DNA from: Prochlorothrix hollandica PCC 9006 = CALU 1027
Lineage (GTDB): Bacteria; Cyanobacteriota; Cyanobacteriia; Prochlorotrichales; Prochlorotrichaceae
Length of the DNA stretch: 64,000 nt
Reading direction: 5' to 3'
Assembly (NCBI RefSeq): GCF_000332315.1
Contig: NZ_KB235933.1
Location: forward strand, 933,290-997,289
Below, in pieces: positions 9,728-18,616 of the stretch (its first letter is position 1; each line of letters starts with the position of its first letter). The notes below the pieces were generated by a model. The model was not told the origin of the DNA and searched no databases. It was given only the letters and a program-made list of their open reading frames with translations. Made by a program: the position numbers and the translations under genes.

Positions 9728-9816
9728 AATCCGCATCGGGTTCGGGTCTGGCTCAGAATTCCTAACCTTTGGTTGCTTGGGTTAAACTAGGGAAAGTATG
9801 TTGGGGGAAGTTTCTG

Positions 9817-12801
9817 ATGGTAGCTACTGGGTCTAATGCTGGTGTGGGAGCAGAGAGGAGTGGGCAGCTTGGGCCGGGGCTGGAAGCGCTGATTCAGCAA
9901 GGCAAAGCTTTGGAGAAGGGGGAGCAATATGATCAGGCGTTGGTAGTGTTGGAACAAGCGGTTGCTTTAGCGCCAAACTGTGAAGAGGTTACGACAGCAT
10001 ATCGAAAGGCTGTCTCGCACTATACAAAGAAGCTGGCACGTCAGCAGCAACACCAGAAAGCGTATGAGATTTTAGACCATGCTCTAATAGTGTTGCCCAA
10101 CAACTGTATTCTTCTCAATAGTTATGGTAATGCAGCCGCCAGAGCCGGAGATTTCATTAAAGCATTTAAGTTTTTTGAACAAGCTCTCAAGCTCGACGAT
10201 CGTGATGTAATTACTCTCAACAGCTATGCGCAAATTTTAATCAAGCAGGGGAACGAGGAAAAGGCGGCTCAACTGTTTGAACAGTCTCTCAACCTCGACG
10301 ATCGTAATATCATCACTCTCAACAGTTATGCGCAACTTCTGATGAAGCAGGGGAATGAGGAAAGGGCGGCTCAACTGTTTGAAAAATCTCTCAAGCTCGA
10401 CGATCGTAATGTCCTAACTTATATTAGCTACGCGCAACTTCTGATGAAGCAAGGGAATGATGAAAGGGCGGCTCAATTGTTTGAACAAGCTCTCAATCTC
10501 GACGATTGTAATGTTATCACTCTTAATAGCTACGCACAGCTTCTGATGAGGCAAGGGAATGATGAAAGGGCGGCTCAATTGTTTGAACAAGCTCTCAATC
10601 TCGACGATCGTGATGTAATTACTCTCAACAGCTATGCGCAAATTTTAATGAGGCAGGGGAATGAGGAAAGGGCAGCTCAACTGTTTGAAAAAGCTCTCAA
10701 TCTCGACAATTATCATGTGCCAACTCTCAACAGCTATGCGCAATTTCTGATGAGGCAGGGGAATGAGGAAAGGGCAGCTCAACTGTTTGCACAATCTCTT
10801 AATCTCGACGATCGCAATATCCCAACTCTCAACAGGTATGCGCGACTTCTGATGAGACAGGGGAATGAGGAAAGGGCAGCTCAACTGTTTGAACAATCTC
10901 TCAATTTCGACGATCGCAATGTCATCACTCTCAGAAATTATGTTCAGCTACTGATCAAGCAAGGGAATGAGATAAAAGCAAGCCAACTTTTTGAAAGACT
11001 CTCAAGTTTAAACGGTCATGATGTTGTGACTCTGACTCAGTATTCAAAAGTGTTGTCTAAGCGAGGTGACTTTACTCAAGCACTGGTAGTTATAAAACAG
11101 GCGTTAGCATTAGACGATCAAGACATTATCACTCTCACTAGTTATGCTCAGCTTTTAGTCAAGAGTGACTATGATGATCAAGCCGCTCAAATTTTTCAAC
11201 AGGCTCTAGAACTTGATGGAGAGAATATAATTGCTTTAAGTAACTATGCACGTTTATTAGCTAAAAGTGGTTGTAATCAGCAAGCTGCTCAACTGTTTGA
11301 AAAAGCCTTGAAACTCAGTCCTTCCGATATGATTACCTTAGGTCGGTATGCCCAATTCTTAATCAAACAAGGAAACTATCAACAGGCTTGTAATTTATTG
11401 GATCAAGTTGTTGCTAATGAACTTGTTCATTTTTCTAGTCGTGATACCCACGCCTACTCCAGCTTCAAACACGCCCAAACCCTTGAAGCCGCAGGCCGCT
11501 ACCCACAAGCCCTCGATCGACTTCTGAAAATTGATCTCAGTCAACAGCAGCCCTACCATGCCAACATCATCCGTCTTAACCTGGGTAGACTCTACTACCT
11601 CCTGGGGCAAGCCCAAACCGGCCAAGACTATTTCAACACCGCGATCTACCTAGCCGACGATCCCGACCAAACCCGCCTCTACGCTGCCCGCAGCCTCCTC
11701 GTCCATCGCCTCGATCTGGATACCGCCATCGACCTCCTCCAAAGCATCGATGAAGATTCCCCCCGCTACGCCAACGCCCGCCATACCATTGCTCTCAACG
11801 CCTCTGCCCAAACCGCCTATGGTCTCTTCAGTGAACCCAATCAAAGCGGCATCGACCCCGAACTGCTCTATCGGGCCATGTACCACAAAATCGGTAATGA
11901 AGTTGCCATCCTCAAAAGCATCGCCCAACGGTTACTGCGAAAAATCCAAGGTGAGCATCCCCTCGTGGCTGAAATTGTCGCCAACCTTGATACAATGCAA
12001 GCCAGCATCATCCAAGAACGCAGCAGCCAACAAGCCGCGATCGAGCAACTCTCCAGCCCTAACTATACAAAAACACTCCAAATTATCGCTGAAACCGCCC
12101 ATAACGTCTCCGATTGGGTCAACAATGAACTGGCCGTCATCGAGTCCAAAACCCGCCGCGCCCTCCGCAAACTCGACTCCAAAAGTCCCCATGCTGACCA
12201 CTTCAACCGCCTTCTCTACCAACTTGAATTGACCCAAGCCGCCCTCAGCGATCTCAAATCCATCAGCGAGGGAATGCCGATCCAACATCGCCGCTTTCCC
12301 GTCTGTCGCCTCTTTGAAAAATGGCAACCGGAACACTGGTCTAGCACCCCCCGCATCCAAAAAGCTAGAGTTCGGCTTTTTATTGACAATCCCGACTCAG
12401 AATTTGATGGGGACGAGGAAAAAATCAAAAGCATTCTCAACGAATTGGTGGAAAACTCCCTCAAGCACAATGCCAACCATCGGGATCTGCTGATTCGGAT
12501 TTACTCACGGGATCTGCTCAATCCCACTGACATTGCTGCTCCCACTATCCCCGGCGATCGGCGCTATCTTTATCTCCAATTTATTGACAACGGGCAGGGC
12601 ATTCCCCAAGATAAAAAAGACTGGATTTTCCAACCACTACATACCACCTCTTCGGATGAGAAGGGCAGCGGTTTGGGTCTTTTCATTATTCGTAAGACAA
12701 TTCAACAAATGGGCGGCTTTATTCAAGAAGTTGGCGAACCGGATCAAGGGGTTCGCTTCCAAATCTATCTGCCCTATCCCTCTGATTCAGATATCCCCTA
12801 G
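9817..12801 (+). CDS. TPR-repeat sensor histidine kinase
   Basis: A soluble kinase of 994 residues. Residues from about 20 to 600 are TPR motifs of 34 residues; nine central copies (10189-10990) are nearly identical in DNA with a 102-bp period (QGNEERAAQLFEQSLNLDDR). A second helical region follows, then a phosphoacceptor-like helix (MYHKIGNEVAILKSIAQRLL, near 687). The C-terminal HATPase has an N-box (LNELVENSLKHNAN), a G1-box (FIDNGQGIP) and a G2-box (GSGLGLFIIRKT). The ATG at 9817 has GGGGGAAG about 6 nt upstream; the open frame to 9769 lacks such support. The stop is 26 nt before the next gene, a receiver protein, so the two are a probable cognate pair. Confidence 0.88.
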   Translation: MVATGSNAGVGAERSGQLGPGLEALIQQGKALEKGEQYDQALVVLEQAVALAPNCEEVTTAYRKAVSHYTKKLARQQQHQKAYEILDHALIVLPNNCILLNSYGNAAARAGDFIKAFKFFEQALKLDDRDVITLNSYAQILIKQGNEEKAAQLFEQSLNLDDRNIITLNSYAQLLMKQGNEERAAQLFEKSLKLDDRNVLTYISYAQLLMKQGNDERAAQLFEQALNLDDCNVITLNSYAQLLMRQGNDERAAQLFEQALNLDDRDVITLNSYAQILMRQGNEERAAQLFEKALNLDNYHVPTLNSYAQFLMRQGNEERAAQLFAQSLNLDDRNIPTLNRYARLLMRQGNEERAAQLFEQSLNFDDRNVITLRNYVQLLIKQGNEIKASQLFERLSSLNGHDVVTLTQYSKVLSKRGDFTQALVVIKQALALDDQDIITLTSYAQLLVKSDYDDQAAQIFQQALELDGENIIALSNYARLLAKSGCNQQAAQLFEKALKLSPSDMITLGRYAQFLIKQGNYQQACNLLDQVVANELVHFSSRDTHAYSSFKHAQTLEAAGRYPQALDRLLKIDLSQQQPYHANIIRLNLGRLYYLLGQAQTGQDYFNTAIYLADDPDQTRLYAARSLLVHRLDLDTAIDLLQSIDEDSPRYANARHTIALNASAQTAYGLFSEPNQSGIDPELLYRAMYHKIGNEVAILKSIAQRLLRKIQGEHPLVAEIVANLDTMQASIIQERSSQQAAIEQLSSPNYTKTLQIIAETAHNVSDWVNNELAVIESKTRRALRKLDSKSPHADHFNRLLYQLELTQAALSDLKSISEGMPIQHRRFPVCRLFEKWQPEHWSSTPRIQKARVRLFIDNPDSEFDGDEEKIKSILNELVENSLKHNANHRDLLIRIYSRDLLNPTDIAAPTIPGDRRYLYLQFIDNGQGIPQDKKDWIFQPLHTTSSDEKGSGLGLFIIRKTIQQMGGFIQEVGEPDQGVRFQIYLPYPSDSDIP

Positions 12802-12827
12802 TCTCTCCAGGAGTGCAACACCCAACA

Positions 12828-13916
12828 ATGTCAAAAGCAGATGTCCACATTTTCGCCATTGAAGACAGTCCCCGCTACCTGGAGGAACTCCTAGAATGGC
12901 TCCGAGACTTCGGCTATAGCAATATTCTGACTGCTACTACCGCCCCAGAAGCCCAAGAGAAATTGGATCCCGCCAAACATAGGGTTTGTGATGTCATTAT
13001 TGCCGATATGCGTCTCGGTAAAGACGACAGCGGTGGTTTTGCGATTCTAGATTGGGTGAAAGCCCAAAACCTCTCAGCCGTCGTGATTATCCTCACGGCC
13101 AACGCCACTGTCCCCGATTGCCGTCGTGCTTTCCGCAGTGGAGCCTGGGACTACATCGCCAAAGATGCCCCTGGTAATAATTTTGAAGATTTAGATCAGT
13201 CTATTGAAGCTGCGATCGCCTACCTCAATCGTTGGGGCAGTCAGCCCAACCAACAATGGTTTAGTGAACATCAAACTGAACTGGAAAACCAATATTGGGG
13301 CCAGTGGTTGGCGATCGCGAACCAAACCGTCATCGAAACCGCAGATACCCAACAGGAACTGGAACAACGCCTCGAAGAACGCAAACTGCGCCGCTTTACC
13401 GTCACTCTTAAACAAATCGGTGACTTCCGCCCCATCAAGAATCTGATTCAGGAGTCCGAGCGCGAAGATCTGGAGTTCAAAAGTAGTTTTCAGTGGGATG
13501 TGCGGGAAAACAAGCAAAATAAAGATCTGTGCATTGCTGTTCTCAAGACGATCGCTGCTTTTCTCAATACCAAAGGCGGCACCCTCTTAATTGGCGTTGA
13601 AGATGATGGCACCCTATGTGGTTTAGCCTCAGATCTCAGTTGTTTCAGTACGACACCCACCCTTGATCAGTTTGAACGACATCTACGCCAGACCATTAGT
13701 AATGCGATCGGTGCGAAATTTTTGCCCTATCTGTTTATTCGTTGTGAGAACTTAGACGGTAAAGATATTTGTGCTGTATACGTCCGACCTGCCCCCATGC
13801 CCGCTTTTCTGAAGGCTAAACCTTCCCATTCTGATGTCACTTTTTTCATCCGACCGGGCAACGAGACCAAAGCCCTGACGATCCCTGAATGCTATGACTA
13901 CTGGAGTCAGAAATGA
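12828..13916 (+). CDS. Response regulator with AlbA_2 (Schlafen-type) output domain
   Basis: 362 residues. The N-terminal receiver (1-130) has acidic residues IEDSP, the phosphoacceptor D60 in VIIADMRL, the LTANA threonine and the YIAKDAP lysine. A helical linker (135-205) leads to an AlbA_2 domain, marked by EREDLEFKSSFQWD and the signature FLNTKGGTLLIGVEDDGT. AlbA_2/Schlafen domains are nucleic-acid-associated, found in putative transcription factors, helicases and RNases. It follows the TPR kinase in the same direction. AGGAG at 12809-12813 precedes the ATG; a GTG at 12813 is the alternative start. Receiver plus AlbA_2 is an uncommon output combination, and whether it acts as regulator or nuclease is unknown. 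Confidence 0.85.
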   Translation: MSKADVHIFAIEDSPRYLEELLEWLRDFGYSNILTATTAPEAQEKLDPAKHRVCDVIIADMRLGKDDSGGFAILDWVKAQNLSAVVIILTANATVPDCRRAFRSGAWDYIAKDAPGNNFEDLDQSIEAAIAYLNRWGSQPNQQWFSEHQTELENQYWGQWLAIANQTVIETADTQQELEQRLEERKLRRFTVTLKQIGDFRPIKNLIQESEREDLEFKSSFQWDVRENKQNKDLCIAVLKTIAAFLNTKGGTLLIGVEDDGTLCGLASDLSCFSTTPTLDQFERHLRQTISNAIGAKFLPYLFIRCENLDGKDICAVYVRPAPMPAFLKAKPSHSDVTFFIRPGNETKALTIPECYDYWSQK

Positions 13917-15275: not shown

Positions 15276-15379
15276 CGTTCGTAATAACGACTTCAGTCGT
15301 TCCCCTCCCCGGAGTTACGGGCGAGAGCGACTGAAGTCGCTACTACAAACCTGAGCGACTGAAGTCGCTACTACAAACC
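15276..15379. repeat. R5 repeat cluster
   Basis: Three units of a small palindromic motif: one as TAACGACTTCAGTCGTT and two as GAGCGACTGAAGTCGCTACT followed by ACAAACC. Each has 7-bp arms around a 2-bp centre. The same family recurs at 18452-18616, with a fragment at 47247-47256. Confidence 0.8.
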
Positions 15380-15401: not shown

Positions 15402-17144
15402 TCAAATTTTGCCTGAGAACCCTTGGCAGTTGAGTTCCCCGGCACAGATCGGTTCTGGGAATGAGAAGCGGTGTAGGATTTCCGGGTGGATTTCGCCGAA
15501 ATGGCCGATGGGTTGCCCCGCCACCACCACCCACGCCGATCGCCCCTGGAGATAAAGAGCCAGATCGCAATCCGCCAAGGTATAGGTAATGTCTAAACCT
15601 TGGAGCAGGGTCTGCACATAGGACTTGGCCTGGGCAAAGGAGGCTTTGGAGCCTAACCGGGCAAACCCCCAATGCATCTCTTCCTGCACGAGACCGGCAG
15701 GTTGGATCAACCCAGGGTTTTGGGGTGGCTCCTGGCTGGCACTGGTCTCTGGTCGTGGTGCCAACCGCTGTAGCACCTCCCCGATTTCATAGATCTGGAT
15801 CGGTTTAGGGGCGGTGATGTGGTGGGCCAAAATATCCAGCAATCCCGGCAGGAGAGTGGTGCGGGTGACGCTGTGGCTTTGGCTCCGGGCATTGGCGGTG
15901 TGGATGGCTTCGCCGGGGAAGCCCTGGAGCAGTTGGGGATCCGTGAGAATATAGCTCTTCACTTCCGTTAGGCCCAGGCGCTGGGAGAATTCCCCAAGGC
16001 GGTGGGCTAGGGTTTTGAGGGGGTTGGGGGTGCCGTTATAAAACTGGAGATGGGAGCGATCGGCCTGCAACTGGTCAATGCCCACCGCCACCAACAAATC
16101 CCCCGCCACATCGCTTTGGCTGAGGATGTCGGTGCGATAGCTGGGCACCTGGACACAATCGCCCCCCTCGCCCCCCGTGACGTGTAGATCCATGCGGGCG
16201 AGGTAACGGTGCAGATCCCCCTTGGCGATAAAGGTGCCCACCACTTCATTGAGAAACTTGGCGGCAAAGGGCACCGGGCGGGGGCAGAGGTTGGGGGTCA
16301 GGTGGGAGCCGTCGGCGGTGATGATGGTGACGGTTTTGACGATCGCGCCCCCATCCAAGACATTGTGGGCGACGATGTTGGCTAATCCCGCTACCCCTTG
16401 GGCCGAAGTACCGGTGACTTCCACTAGGATTCGCTGGGTTTCTCCCGTAATATAGCTTAAGTCAGCCACATTAACCAGGGGTGGAATGCATAAAATGGCT
16501 CCCGCCCCATCCCGCAGGACAGGCAGCAGATCTGGGGTCGGTAGAGGTTGTCCTGGGGGGAAGGTTTGGGCCTGTTCCGTCAGGATTTCTGCGGCGGTGC
16601 GGGGCCGATCGTGGTCCAGGGTCATCAACTGCACCTGATCTCCCGGCACTAAGCCATAGACTAAATCACCTTGGACTTGATCCAAATCATAGAAACCCAG
16701 GGCTAGCTTTTGCCGGTGTCGCCCATGGGTTTGGGTCACCTTGTCCCGGAACTGGAGCAAGGCTTCTAGCCCCTCTGCCCCTAAGCCAGGGGTTTCCACC
16801 ACCAAGGCGGCAATGTGGGGACGTAGGGGGGGAGATTGGGGCAATACCTGAATCGATCGGCCAGACGGAGGGAGGGGGTCGGGGTGCGATCGAGGTTGGC
16901 CATTAGCTTGGCCGTTAGCTTGGCCATTAGCTTGGCCGTTAGCTTGGCTATTATAAATATTCAGGGCACGGGCAAACCCTTCAGGGGCCAGCAAGTCCGG
17001 ACGATCGGCGGTTACCTCCACCTCTAAGCTATGGCCCACCAGGGTGGCATCTAAACCATAGTCAAAGGCTTGTTGCACCAGTTGCTGGGGGCTAGCGGTG
17101 GTCAGGCGACTGAGATAGGCCAGGGGAAAGGTGGCGGTGGGCAT
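15402..17144 (-). CDS. Archaeal/eukaryotic-type phenylalanyl-tRNA synthetase beta-like protein
   Basis: 580 residues, far shorter than the roughly 800-residue bacterial PheT. The order follows archaeal PheT: an N-terminal module (LEVEVTADRPDLLAPEGFAR), a B3/4 region with IPPLVNVADLSYITGETQR and LVEVTGTS, B5 (VQVPSYRTDILSQSDVAGDL), and a catalytic-core-like C-terminal domain. There is no EMAP/tRNA-binding N-terminal domain or anticodon-binding B8 domain. In heterotetrameric PheRS the beta subunit edits Tyr-tRNA(Phe) and supports the alpha subunit, but no alpha subunit is in this window. A tetrapeptide repeat (NGQA, four copies, about residues 69-85) interrupts a loop. Activity and the identity of a partner are inference. 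Confidence 0.75.
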   Translation of the reverse strand: MPTATFPLAYLSRLTTASPQQLVQQAFDYGLDATLVGHSLEVEVTADRPDLLAPEGFARALNIYNSQANGQANGQANGQANGQPRSHPDPLPPSGRSIQVLPQSPPLRPHIAALVVETPGLGAEGLEALLQFRDKVTQTHGRHRQKLALGFYDLDQVQGDLVYGLVPGDQVQLMTLDHDRPRTAAEILTEQAQTFPPGQPLPTPDLLPVLRDGAGAILCIPPLVNVADLSYITGETQRILVEVTGTSAQGVAGLANIVAHNVLDGGAIVKTVTIITADGSHLTPNLCPRPVPFAAKFLNEVVGTFIAKGDLHRYLARMDLHVTGGEGGDCVQVPSYRTDILSQSDVAGDLLVAVGIDQLQADRSHLQFYNGTPNPLKTLAHRLGEFSQRLGLTEVKSYILTDPQLLQGFPGEAIHTANARSQSHSVTRTTLLPGLLDILAHHITAPKPIQIYEIGEVLQRLAPRPETSASQEPPQNPGLIQPAGLVQEEMHWGFARLGSKASFAQAKSYVQTLLQGLDITYTLADCDLALYLQGRSAWVVVAGQPIGHFGEIHPEILHRFSFPEPICAGELNCQGFSGKI

Positions 17145-17532: not shown

Positions 17533-18423
17533 ATGACTGAATCCATTAACGAACTCGTCGATAAACTACCCCAACGCAACATTACCACCATGGCCCTAGA
17601 AGCCTTGGATTTTGTGATACCGGGGGAATGGGACAACACTATTGGCTGGAATAATACCATTACGGTGCTGACCGGTGCCCAGGGCCGCGATGCCATGGCC
17701 ATTAGTGCTAAAGCCATGGAAATCTATGCTAACGAACGCAATGGCTATCAAACCGCCATGTGGTTATATGAAAGTCTCGACAATGCTGATACAGCCCTGG
17801 GGGTGGCGGCCCTGGCGGATAAGGTGGGGGGTCGGATTCCCCTGTTTGGTGGTTTGATCGATCGTCTCACCCCCAAGGCAGATACGGTTCAGTCCTTGGA
17901 TTTAGCCCTGAAAATTGCTGTAGAAGTCATTGCCTACTGCAAAATAAACGGACTGGCGGAGGCTAGCATTGGTAGCTTTACGAATGCTCTGCGCACTGAA
18001 TATAGTGGACCGTCTTTGATCCGGGCTGCTGCTTTGGTCTGCTTTGATGGTTTAGTGCCCCTGGGACCTGATTTCCTTGATGTCATCACCCGCAATTTAA
18101 ATACCTTAGATACGGGTCATCTGAGCAATAATGGTGTTTTCAAAACCGTGAGCCGTGTTATTCCGGGGGGAGGCGTTGACGATAAGTTGAATTTTATTTC
18201 CAATAGTGTGACTGGTGTGCGGGGGTGGATGAGTAATTTGATTACCAGTCGGGGATTGAGTCCCCAAAAGGTCACCGGTAATCTGCAAAAGTTCGTTGAC
18301 ATCAGTGATGATAAGTTGGACTACTTGGCCGCTTTTCTGGACATGAGTACTAATTATTTTGAACACACAGGAACCCAAAGCGTGGCCCGCCACTTAATCC
18401 TCCGTGCCCAACGGGAACTTTAA
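17533..18423 (+). CDS. Conserved hypothetical protein, alpha-helical
   Basis: 296 residues; I do not recognise the family. It is soluble-looking, without signal peptide or membrane segment. It begins MTESINELVDKLPQRNITTM and contains alternating hydrophobic helices, a short glycine-rich turn (VIPGGGVDD) and a C-terminal stretch ending AQREL. Codon use and composition match the chromosomal genes around it. The frame, ATG start and length make it a convincing gene, but its role is unknown. Confidence 0.7.
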   Translation: MTESINELVDKLPQRNITTMALEALDFVIPGEWDNTIGWNNTITVLTGAQGRDAMAISAKAMEIYANERNGYQTAMWLYESLDNADTALGVAALADKVGGRIPLFGGLIDRLTPKADTVQSLDLALKIAVEVIAYCKINGLAEASIGSFTNALRTEYSGPSLIRAAALVCFDGLVPLGPDFLDVITRNLNTLDTGHLSNNGVFKTVSRVIPGGGVDDKLNFISNSVTGVRGWMSNLITSRGLSPQKVTGNLQKFVDISDDKLDYLAAFLDMSTNYFEHTGTQSVARHLILRAQREL

Positions 18424-18451: not shown

Positions 18452-18616
18452 TAGTCAGAACTTCAGTCGCTACTACAAACCAGAGCGACTGAAGTCGCTA
18501 TTACAAACCATGAACTTGAGCAGTTCCTCCTCGTTCGTAGTAACGACTTCAGTCGTTGCCCTCCAGAGAGCGACTAAAGTCGCTACTACAAACCAGAGCG
18601 ACTTCAGTCGCTACTA
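18452..18616. repeat. R5 repeat cluster
   Basis: Five R5 motifs (AGCGACTGAAGTCGCT-type, both orientations, some as GACTAAAGTC) separated by ACAAACC linkers. They occupy the gap after the hypothetical gene and stop just before R2 copy B. Confidence 0.8.

Follow-up and report, generated by a model that had tools for sequence, protein, structure and literature searches.

An archaeal/eukaryotic-type phenylalanyl-tRNA synthetase encoded alongside the bacterial enzyme in Prochlorothrix hollandica and other cyanobacteria

The genome of the cyanobacterium Prochlorothrix hollandica encodes two full phenylalanyl-tRNA synthetase (PheRS) enzymes of different domain type. Bacterial PheS and PheT are complete, as are an archaeal/eukaryotic-type alpha and beta subunit, here termed PheS2 and PheT2 (together PheRS2), and two full enzymes are therefore encoded. 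The second pair is a system rather than a one-genome oddity: its genes are intact, inherited together, adjacent in some genomes, under purifying selection and conserved at functional residues, and they occur in cyanobacteria nearly all of which have kept the bacterial PheRS. We regard PheRS2 as probably an active second synthetase, anciently acquired and retained for conditions in which it stands in for the bacterial enzyme.

The pheT2 gene and its product

The gene for PheT2 lies in a 64,000-nucleotide stretch of contig C1, the whole stretch being referred to here as the window. An earlier note, made from the sequence of the window, had placed a 580-residue protein at 15402-17144 and read it as an archaeal-type PheT devoid of the extra bacterial-only domains. 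The open reading frame has exactly these bounds, and profile and fold matches agree with that domain type and with the absence of the bacterial extras. The strand, which the note did not give, is minus: the start codon is an ATG at 17144, and stops occur throughout the plus strand of the same interval. The features of the gene are as follows.

15402..17144, minus strand: pheT2, archaeal/eukaryotic-type PheRS beta subunit, 580 aa (open reading frame, pheT_arch profile, fold, orthologues)
16893..16937, minus strand: QANG-repeat linker, residues 70-84, specific to this PheT2, low confidence (sequence; pLDDT <50)
16389..16706, minus strand: B3/4 editing module, residues 147-252, bounds approximate (Pfam B3_4 weak, E 0.013; 2cxi_A, TMt 0.87)
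16701..16703, minus strand: Ala148, editing-pocket entrance (Drosophila A158, P. horikoshii A141), invariant in 31/31 cyanobacterial PheT2
16470..16472, minus strand: Asn225, editing-site residue (human beta N238, P. horikoshii N217), invariant in 31/31 cyanobacterial PheT2
16080..16268, minus strand: B5 domain, residues 293-355 (Pfam PF03484, 2.5e-10)
15429..16037, minus strand: core-like catalytic module, pairing with alpha, residues 370-572 (Pfam PF17759, 2.3e-33)

Bacterial PheT is about 800 aa long over the full TIGR00472 model, and archaeal/eukaryotic-type beta subunits are about 550-600 aa. PheT2 has the length of the latter and the beta-subunit order B1, B3/4, B5 and core-like, B1 and B3/4 being recognized through the fold match, since Pfam detects both weakly and under their cut-offs. 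Against NCBIfam pheT_arch (TIGR00471), PheT2 scores 256.1 bits over residues 34-574 of 580, about 27 bits short of the curated cut-off of 282.65, and its class is assigned here by architecture, fold and clade; the same cut-off is passed by 34 other cyanobacterial PheT2 copies, about 50% identical to this one. Against pheT_bact (TIGR00472), it reaches 116.8 bits, over the core only, where the cut-off is 402.65, and does not qualify as a bacterial PheT.

An AlphaFold model of PheT2, with 30 archaeal-type relatives in the alignment, has a mean pLDDT of 83.5. In a fold search against the PDB, the model best matches the beta subunit of human cytosolic PheRS (3l4g_B, E 3.9e-41); the N-terminal fragment of the P. 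horikoshii beta subunit (2cxi_A) fits it with a TM-score of 0.87 by 2cxi length. By sequence and fold alike, the nearest PDB relatives are the human, fungal and Plasmodium cytosolic PheRS beta subunits. Within the B1-B3 linker, four QANG units stand in tandem in a region that the model leaves disordered.

Two other explanations were rejected. Truncation of a bacterial PheT is ruled out by how PheT2 scores against the profiles and by the genome's possession of a bacterial PheT elsewhere; contamination, by contig C1 (1.59 Mb), which bears both pheT2 and the bacterial pheS, and by the presence of the gene in 35 other genomes. The earlier note had set two readings against its own, a truncated form of bacterial PheT and the PheT universal to cyanobacteria; PheT2 is neither.

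The alpha subunit and the bacterial PheRS

The earlier note saw no alpha subunit beside pheT2, which is correct, and called for a genome search; this recovered bacterial pheS and pheT as well as an archaeal/eukaryotic-type pheS, on another contig. Among the 5.65 Mb and 13 contigs of the host genome, there are two full matches to the PheS core: bacterial PheS (366 aa, contig C1) and PheS2 (485 aa, contig C5).

G000:C5:233618-235075, minus strand: pheS2, archaeal/eukaryotic-type PheRS alpha subunit, 485 aa (PF01409, 260 bits)

The class II core of PheS2 occupies residues 222-484 and is preceded by about 220 residues, giving the long N-terminal extension and the class II core with invariant motif residues that mark an alpha subunit; in the PDB, it comes closest to the cytosolic PheRS alpha subunits of human, fungi and Plasmodium. 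A suspected premature stop in pheS2, a TAG, proved to be the terminal one. The Prochlorothrix genome thus holds genes for both subunits, and hence for the whole archaeal/eukaryotic-type enzyme, next to a bacterial PheT that is itself complete (825 aa; TIGR00472, 754.8 bits over 798 of 798 positions, 1-798). The matching alpha subunit, the retained bacterial PheRS and the foreign phylogenetic position described below all support an acquired second PheRS, one of the options that the earlier note had raised.

Distribution in cyanobacteria

PheT2 was found in 36 of 390 cyanobacterial genomes (about one in ten), including Prochlorothrix; 34 of the 36 copies score above the curated cut-off, the two below it being that of P. 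hollandica and a fragmentary one in G375. PheS2 is present in 35 of the 36 carriers and in 0 of 20 non-carriers, the sole exception being an 86%-complete genome (Fisher p 2.7e-14, a value overstated by the non-independence of related genomes). PheS2 carriers include Nodosilinea species, Tildeniella torsiva, Leptolyngbya sp. FACHB-60 and others. In five genomes (G041, G172, G213, G239 and G312), pheS2 is followed by an adjacent and co-directional pheT2; the genes lie apart in Nodosilinea and P. hollandica.

The bacterial enzyme accompanies the second one. Full-length bacterial PheT was found in 17 of the 20 carriers searched, contig-cut pieces in G342 and G213, and none in the draft G375; bacterial PheS is likewise present. 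No complete carrier genome lacks the bacterial PheRS, G375, G213 and G342 being draft or fragmented. Mapped on the bacterial PheT tree, the carrier state requires 4 to 6 changes; losses or transfers of the system have therefore taken place among cyanobacteria. Searched against plasmids, PheT2 had partial matches of less than 60% identity, none of which covered 80% of the query. A contig scan with the single PheT2 protein found no relatives because the copies are only about 50% identical; a scan with the PheS2 alignment found the PheS2 carriers named above.

Phylogeny and origin

PheS2 and PheT2 each form a single cyanobacterial clade on a very long stem, and support for both clades is full or nearly so. 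In the PheS tree, the cyanobacteria join three eukaryotic sequences, six Asgard genomes and four Micrarchaea genomes (support 98/92), a branch set against all other archaea, and all of its members have the N-P-Y phenylalanine pocket. Its archaeal members are:

Micrarchaea: L286, L287, L293, L168
Asgard phylum: L305, L307, L309, L312, L315, L319

Where these Micrarchaea and Asgard PheS have the pocket Asn, almost every other archaeon sampled has F or Y. Inside the branch, both eukaryotes and Asn-pocket archaea stand as candidate sisters of the cyanobacterial PheS2 (p-AU 0.13 and 0.20 for the alternatives). In the phylogeny that the earlier note called for, PheT2 falls in its own cyanobacterial clade, and the PheT tree resolves no sister for it. 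A common origin with the planctomycete-type archaeal PheRS was rejected (p-AU 0.0017).

With unrooted trees and a long stem leading to the cyanobacteria, long-branch attraction may have acted; the eukaryotic rows are parts taken from PDB matches and spirochaete sequences are not included, and we therefore do not name a donor. Both one gain with losses and several transfers among cyanobacteria are compatible with the PheS2 and PheT2 trees. Separately, the contigs L136 and L141, binned as Bathyarchaeota, have PheS and PheT nearly identical to each other that group with Aenigmatarchaeota, possibly through misbinning or transfer.

Functional residues and selection

Phenylalanine selection in the human alpha subunit involves N410, Y412, F438 and A456 (PMC3275996, PMC4263187). 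Their equivalents in PheS2 are N412, Y414, F440 and A457, all invariant in the cyanobacterial set, as are R360 of motif 2 and R464 of motif 3. The eukaryotic-type pocket, which has Asn at position 410 and Tyr at position 412 of human alpha, is present as N412 and Y414 in 21 of 21 cyanobacterial rows; F stands at the N412 position in 63 of the 65 archaeal rows first sampled, and Asn also occurs there in the four Micrarchaea and six Asgard genomes. The editing site, which the earlier note had singled out for a check, is likewise preserved: Ala148 and Asn225 of B3/4, whose equivalents act at the entrance of the editing pocket (PMC4263187) and, as human beta N238, in editing (PMC3275996), are both present and invariant in the cyanobacterial set, and Asn225 is also invariant across all archaeal sequences compared.

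Within Nodosilinea, dN/dS is 0.11 for pheT2, 0.10 for pheS2 and 0.074 for bacterial pheT. These low values place pheT2 and pheS2 under purifying selection, slightly weaker than that on the native bacterial pheT. The PheT2 of Prochlorothrix is the fastest-evolving row in its clade (end branch 0.63), which counts against the reading of an active enzyme.

A single tRNA-Phe

Among 39 tRNA matches in the Prochlorothrix genome (RNA-family and ARAGORN scans), there is one tRNA-Phe (GAA). Some carriers and one non-carrier share it at 100% identity, and in other genomes, carriers and non-carriers alike, the identity is 92-99%; no special tRNA-Phe was seen in carriers among the genomes compared. PheRS-tRNA pairs of archaeal and of bacterial type are described as lacking cross-reactivity. 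By hand-assigned positions, the Prochlorothrix tRNA-Phe has the universal Phe set G34, A35, A36 and A73. Human PheRS uses the pairs G30-C40 and A31-U39, and position 20 is U in E. coli and G in yeast and Aeropyrum (PMC9976931); the tRNA here, again by hand-assigned positions, has both pairs and U20, as in E. coli and not as in yeast or Aeropyrum. In the reading favored here, PheRS2 would charge the cell's single, bacterial-type tRNA-Phe.

Carriers and non-carriers alike also have copies of the 3' half of tRNA-Phe, at distances of about 13-580 kb from the intact gene; those closer to it resemble the attachment sites of integrated elements. The paired positions are:

G133:C15:20707 and 72925
G268:C1:5616674 and 5036439
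G188:C3:140321 and 124856
G002:C141:71637 and 84992

Gene neighborhood

An alpha/beta hydrolase and a 296-aa open reading frame (17533-18423, no Pfam match) flank pheT2. Further away are a TPR-histidine kinase, a response regulator with a Schlafen AlbA_2 domain, a rhomboid protein and an HlyD protein. The 1010-aa TPR-histidine kinase adjoins the response regulator fused to AlbA_2 (9769-13916), and the two are a two-component pair with an unusual output domain. A dispersed repeat, GTTTGTAGTAGCGACTTCAGTCGCT, occurs in five copies in the window, with 0 expected, two of them immediately downstream of pheT2. On another contig, a portion of this repeat unit is found about 175-200 bases upstream of pheS2 (L033). 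The copies in the window are:

15326-15350
15354-15378 (minus)
18484-18508
18533-18557
18569-18593

In the Prochlorothrix genome, neither pheT2 nor pheS2 is linked to other translation genes. No neighbor family of pheS2 or pheT2 recurs across genera, no biosynthetic cluster or resistance genes were found beside either gene, and Rfam scans of the window and of five pheS2/pheT2 neighborhoods returned no elements besides one tRNA.

Functional interpretation

In the mechanism that we favor, PheT2 and PheS2 would form an archaeal/eukaryotic-type (alpha-beta)2 phenylalanyl-tRNA synthetase that charges the single tRNA-Phe (GAA) with phenylalanine, edits Tyr-tRNA-Phe and operates alongside the intact bacterial PheRS. 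A single ancient transfer would have brought a pheS-pheT unit into cyanobacteria from a donor lineage that falls toward the eukaryote/Asgard-like side of the PheS tree; its patchiness would reflect later loss or further transfer, and the operon would have been split in the Prochlorothrix genome and in Nodosilinea. PheRS2 would most likely serve as a conditional alternative, differing from the bacterial enzyme in its regulation or in how sensitive it is to stress or inhibitors, and neither the neighboring genes nor the Rfam scans for regulatory RNA point to a condition. More tentatively, a eukaryotic-type PheRS derived from near the eukaryotic stem may have functioned together with the bacterial PheRS from a time that predates the divergence of several cyanobacterial families, sharing one tRNA-Phe with it and dividing labor by condition or by resistance to PheRS poisons.

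Resistance could also be the whole explanation, PheRS2 being an inhibitor-insensitive spare against a self-made or neighbor-made compound that blocks the bacterial PheRS. Eukaryote-type IleRS and MetRS confer resistance to other antibiotics, and such target duplication would suit a patchily distributed, deeply divergent enzyme with a eukaryotic-type pocket (N412, where nearly all other archaea have F) beside the native one. However, no inhibitor is known from these organisms, and the resistance or specialized-metabolism role suggested earlier finds no positive evidence in the gene neighborhoods, which hold no biosynthetic or resistance genes and are not conserved across genera; we consider it unlikely. 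A use outside translation, in which PheRS2 supplies Phe-tRNA or a related aminoacyl-tRNA for tRNA-dependent biosynthesis or sensing, would give the reason that a second synthetase with one shared tRNA calls for, and fits genes unlinked to other translation genes in Prochlorothrix. It is rendered improbable by complete catalytic and editing sites, by canonical Phe-selecting residues and by the absence of a linked transferase or peptide-forming enzyme beside pheT2.

Replacement in progress or neutral redundancy, as in the archaeal-type-only lineages (spirochaetes, planctomycetes), has its parallels in the spirochaetes, which replaced their PheRS (PMC3191353), and in Thalassoglobus, other planctomycetes, Caldithrix and Eisenbacteria, which are without bacterial PheT above the cut-off. 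For the cyanobacteria, it is nonetheless a very improbable account, given that both enzymes are intact and constrained in deeply separated carriers and that the bacterial PheRS is lost in no complete carrier genome. The stand-alone editing or tRNA-binding paralogue also proposed in the earlier note, lacking any catalytic partner, would agree with the separation of pheT2 from an alpha gene in Prochlorothrix, but it is contradicted by a co-occurring, catalytically complete alpha subunit in 35 of 36 carriers, adjacent in five, and scarcely deserves credence.

Comparison with known systems

PheRS2 matches the archaeal/eukaryotic cytosolic PheRS (TIGR00471; human FARSA/FARSB, 3l4g; P. horikoshii, 2cxi) in domain order, length and fold; the active-site and editing residues of both subunits are alike, and the PheS2 pocket is the human-type N-P-Y. 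The cyanobacterial enzyme differs in residing in a bacterium beside a bacterial PheRS, with a bacterial tRNA-Phe predicted to be common to both. Spirochaete PheRS (Borrelia, Treponema, Spirochaeta) is also archaeal-type, lies near Thermococcales and replaced the bacterial enzyme (Andam and Gogarten 2011, PMC3191353). Spirochaetes and cyanobacteria are thus alike in that a bacterium took both subunits together from outside bacteria; whereas the spirochaetes replaced their bacterial PheRS, the cyanobacteria keep both, and their alpha subunit groups with eukaryotes and the Asn-pocket archaea. The planctomycete, Caldithrix and Eisenbacteria PheRS (L148, L165, L169, L174, L176) are likewise archaeal-type enzymes in bacteria, but they form a separate clade near Euryarchaeota with F or Y at the N412 position, and no bacterial PheT above the cut-off was found in their genomes, whereas most cyanobacterial carriers retain it.

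Two synthetases for one amino acid also occur in Anabaena, whose threonyl-tRNA synthetases T1 and T2 can form heterodimers, T2 being induced by low zinc (PMC4787780). T1 and T2 are both ThrRS, whereas the two cyanobacterial PheRS are of different domain types; by analogy, the conditional role that we favor for PheRS2 may be comparable to that of T2. In the open-access literature searched, we found no description of a bacterium keeping both PheRS types or of an archaeal/eukaryotic-type PheRS in cyanobacteria. The parts are familiar, unlike their coexistence, the apparent sharing of a single tRNA and the pocket of eukaryotic character. Two PheRS types appear to share one bacterial-type tRNA-Phe per cell, both kept under constraint, and their coexistence amounts to a natural test of tRNA identity, of aminoacyl-tRNA synthetase redundancy and of domain-type resistance, while the Asn-pocket PheS branch, which unites eukaryotes, one Asgard group, some Micrarchaea and cyanobacteria, bears on the origin of the eukaryotic PheRS.
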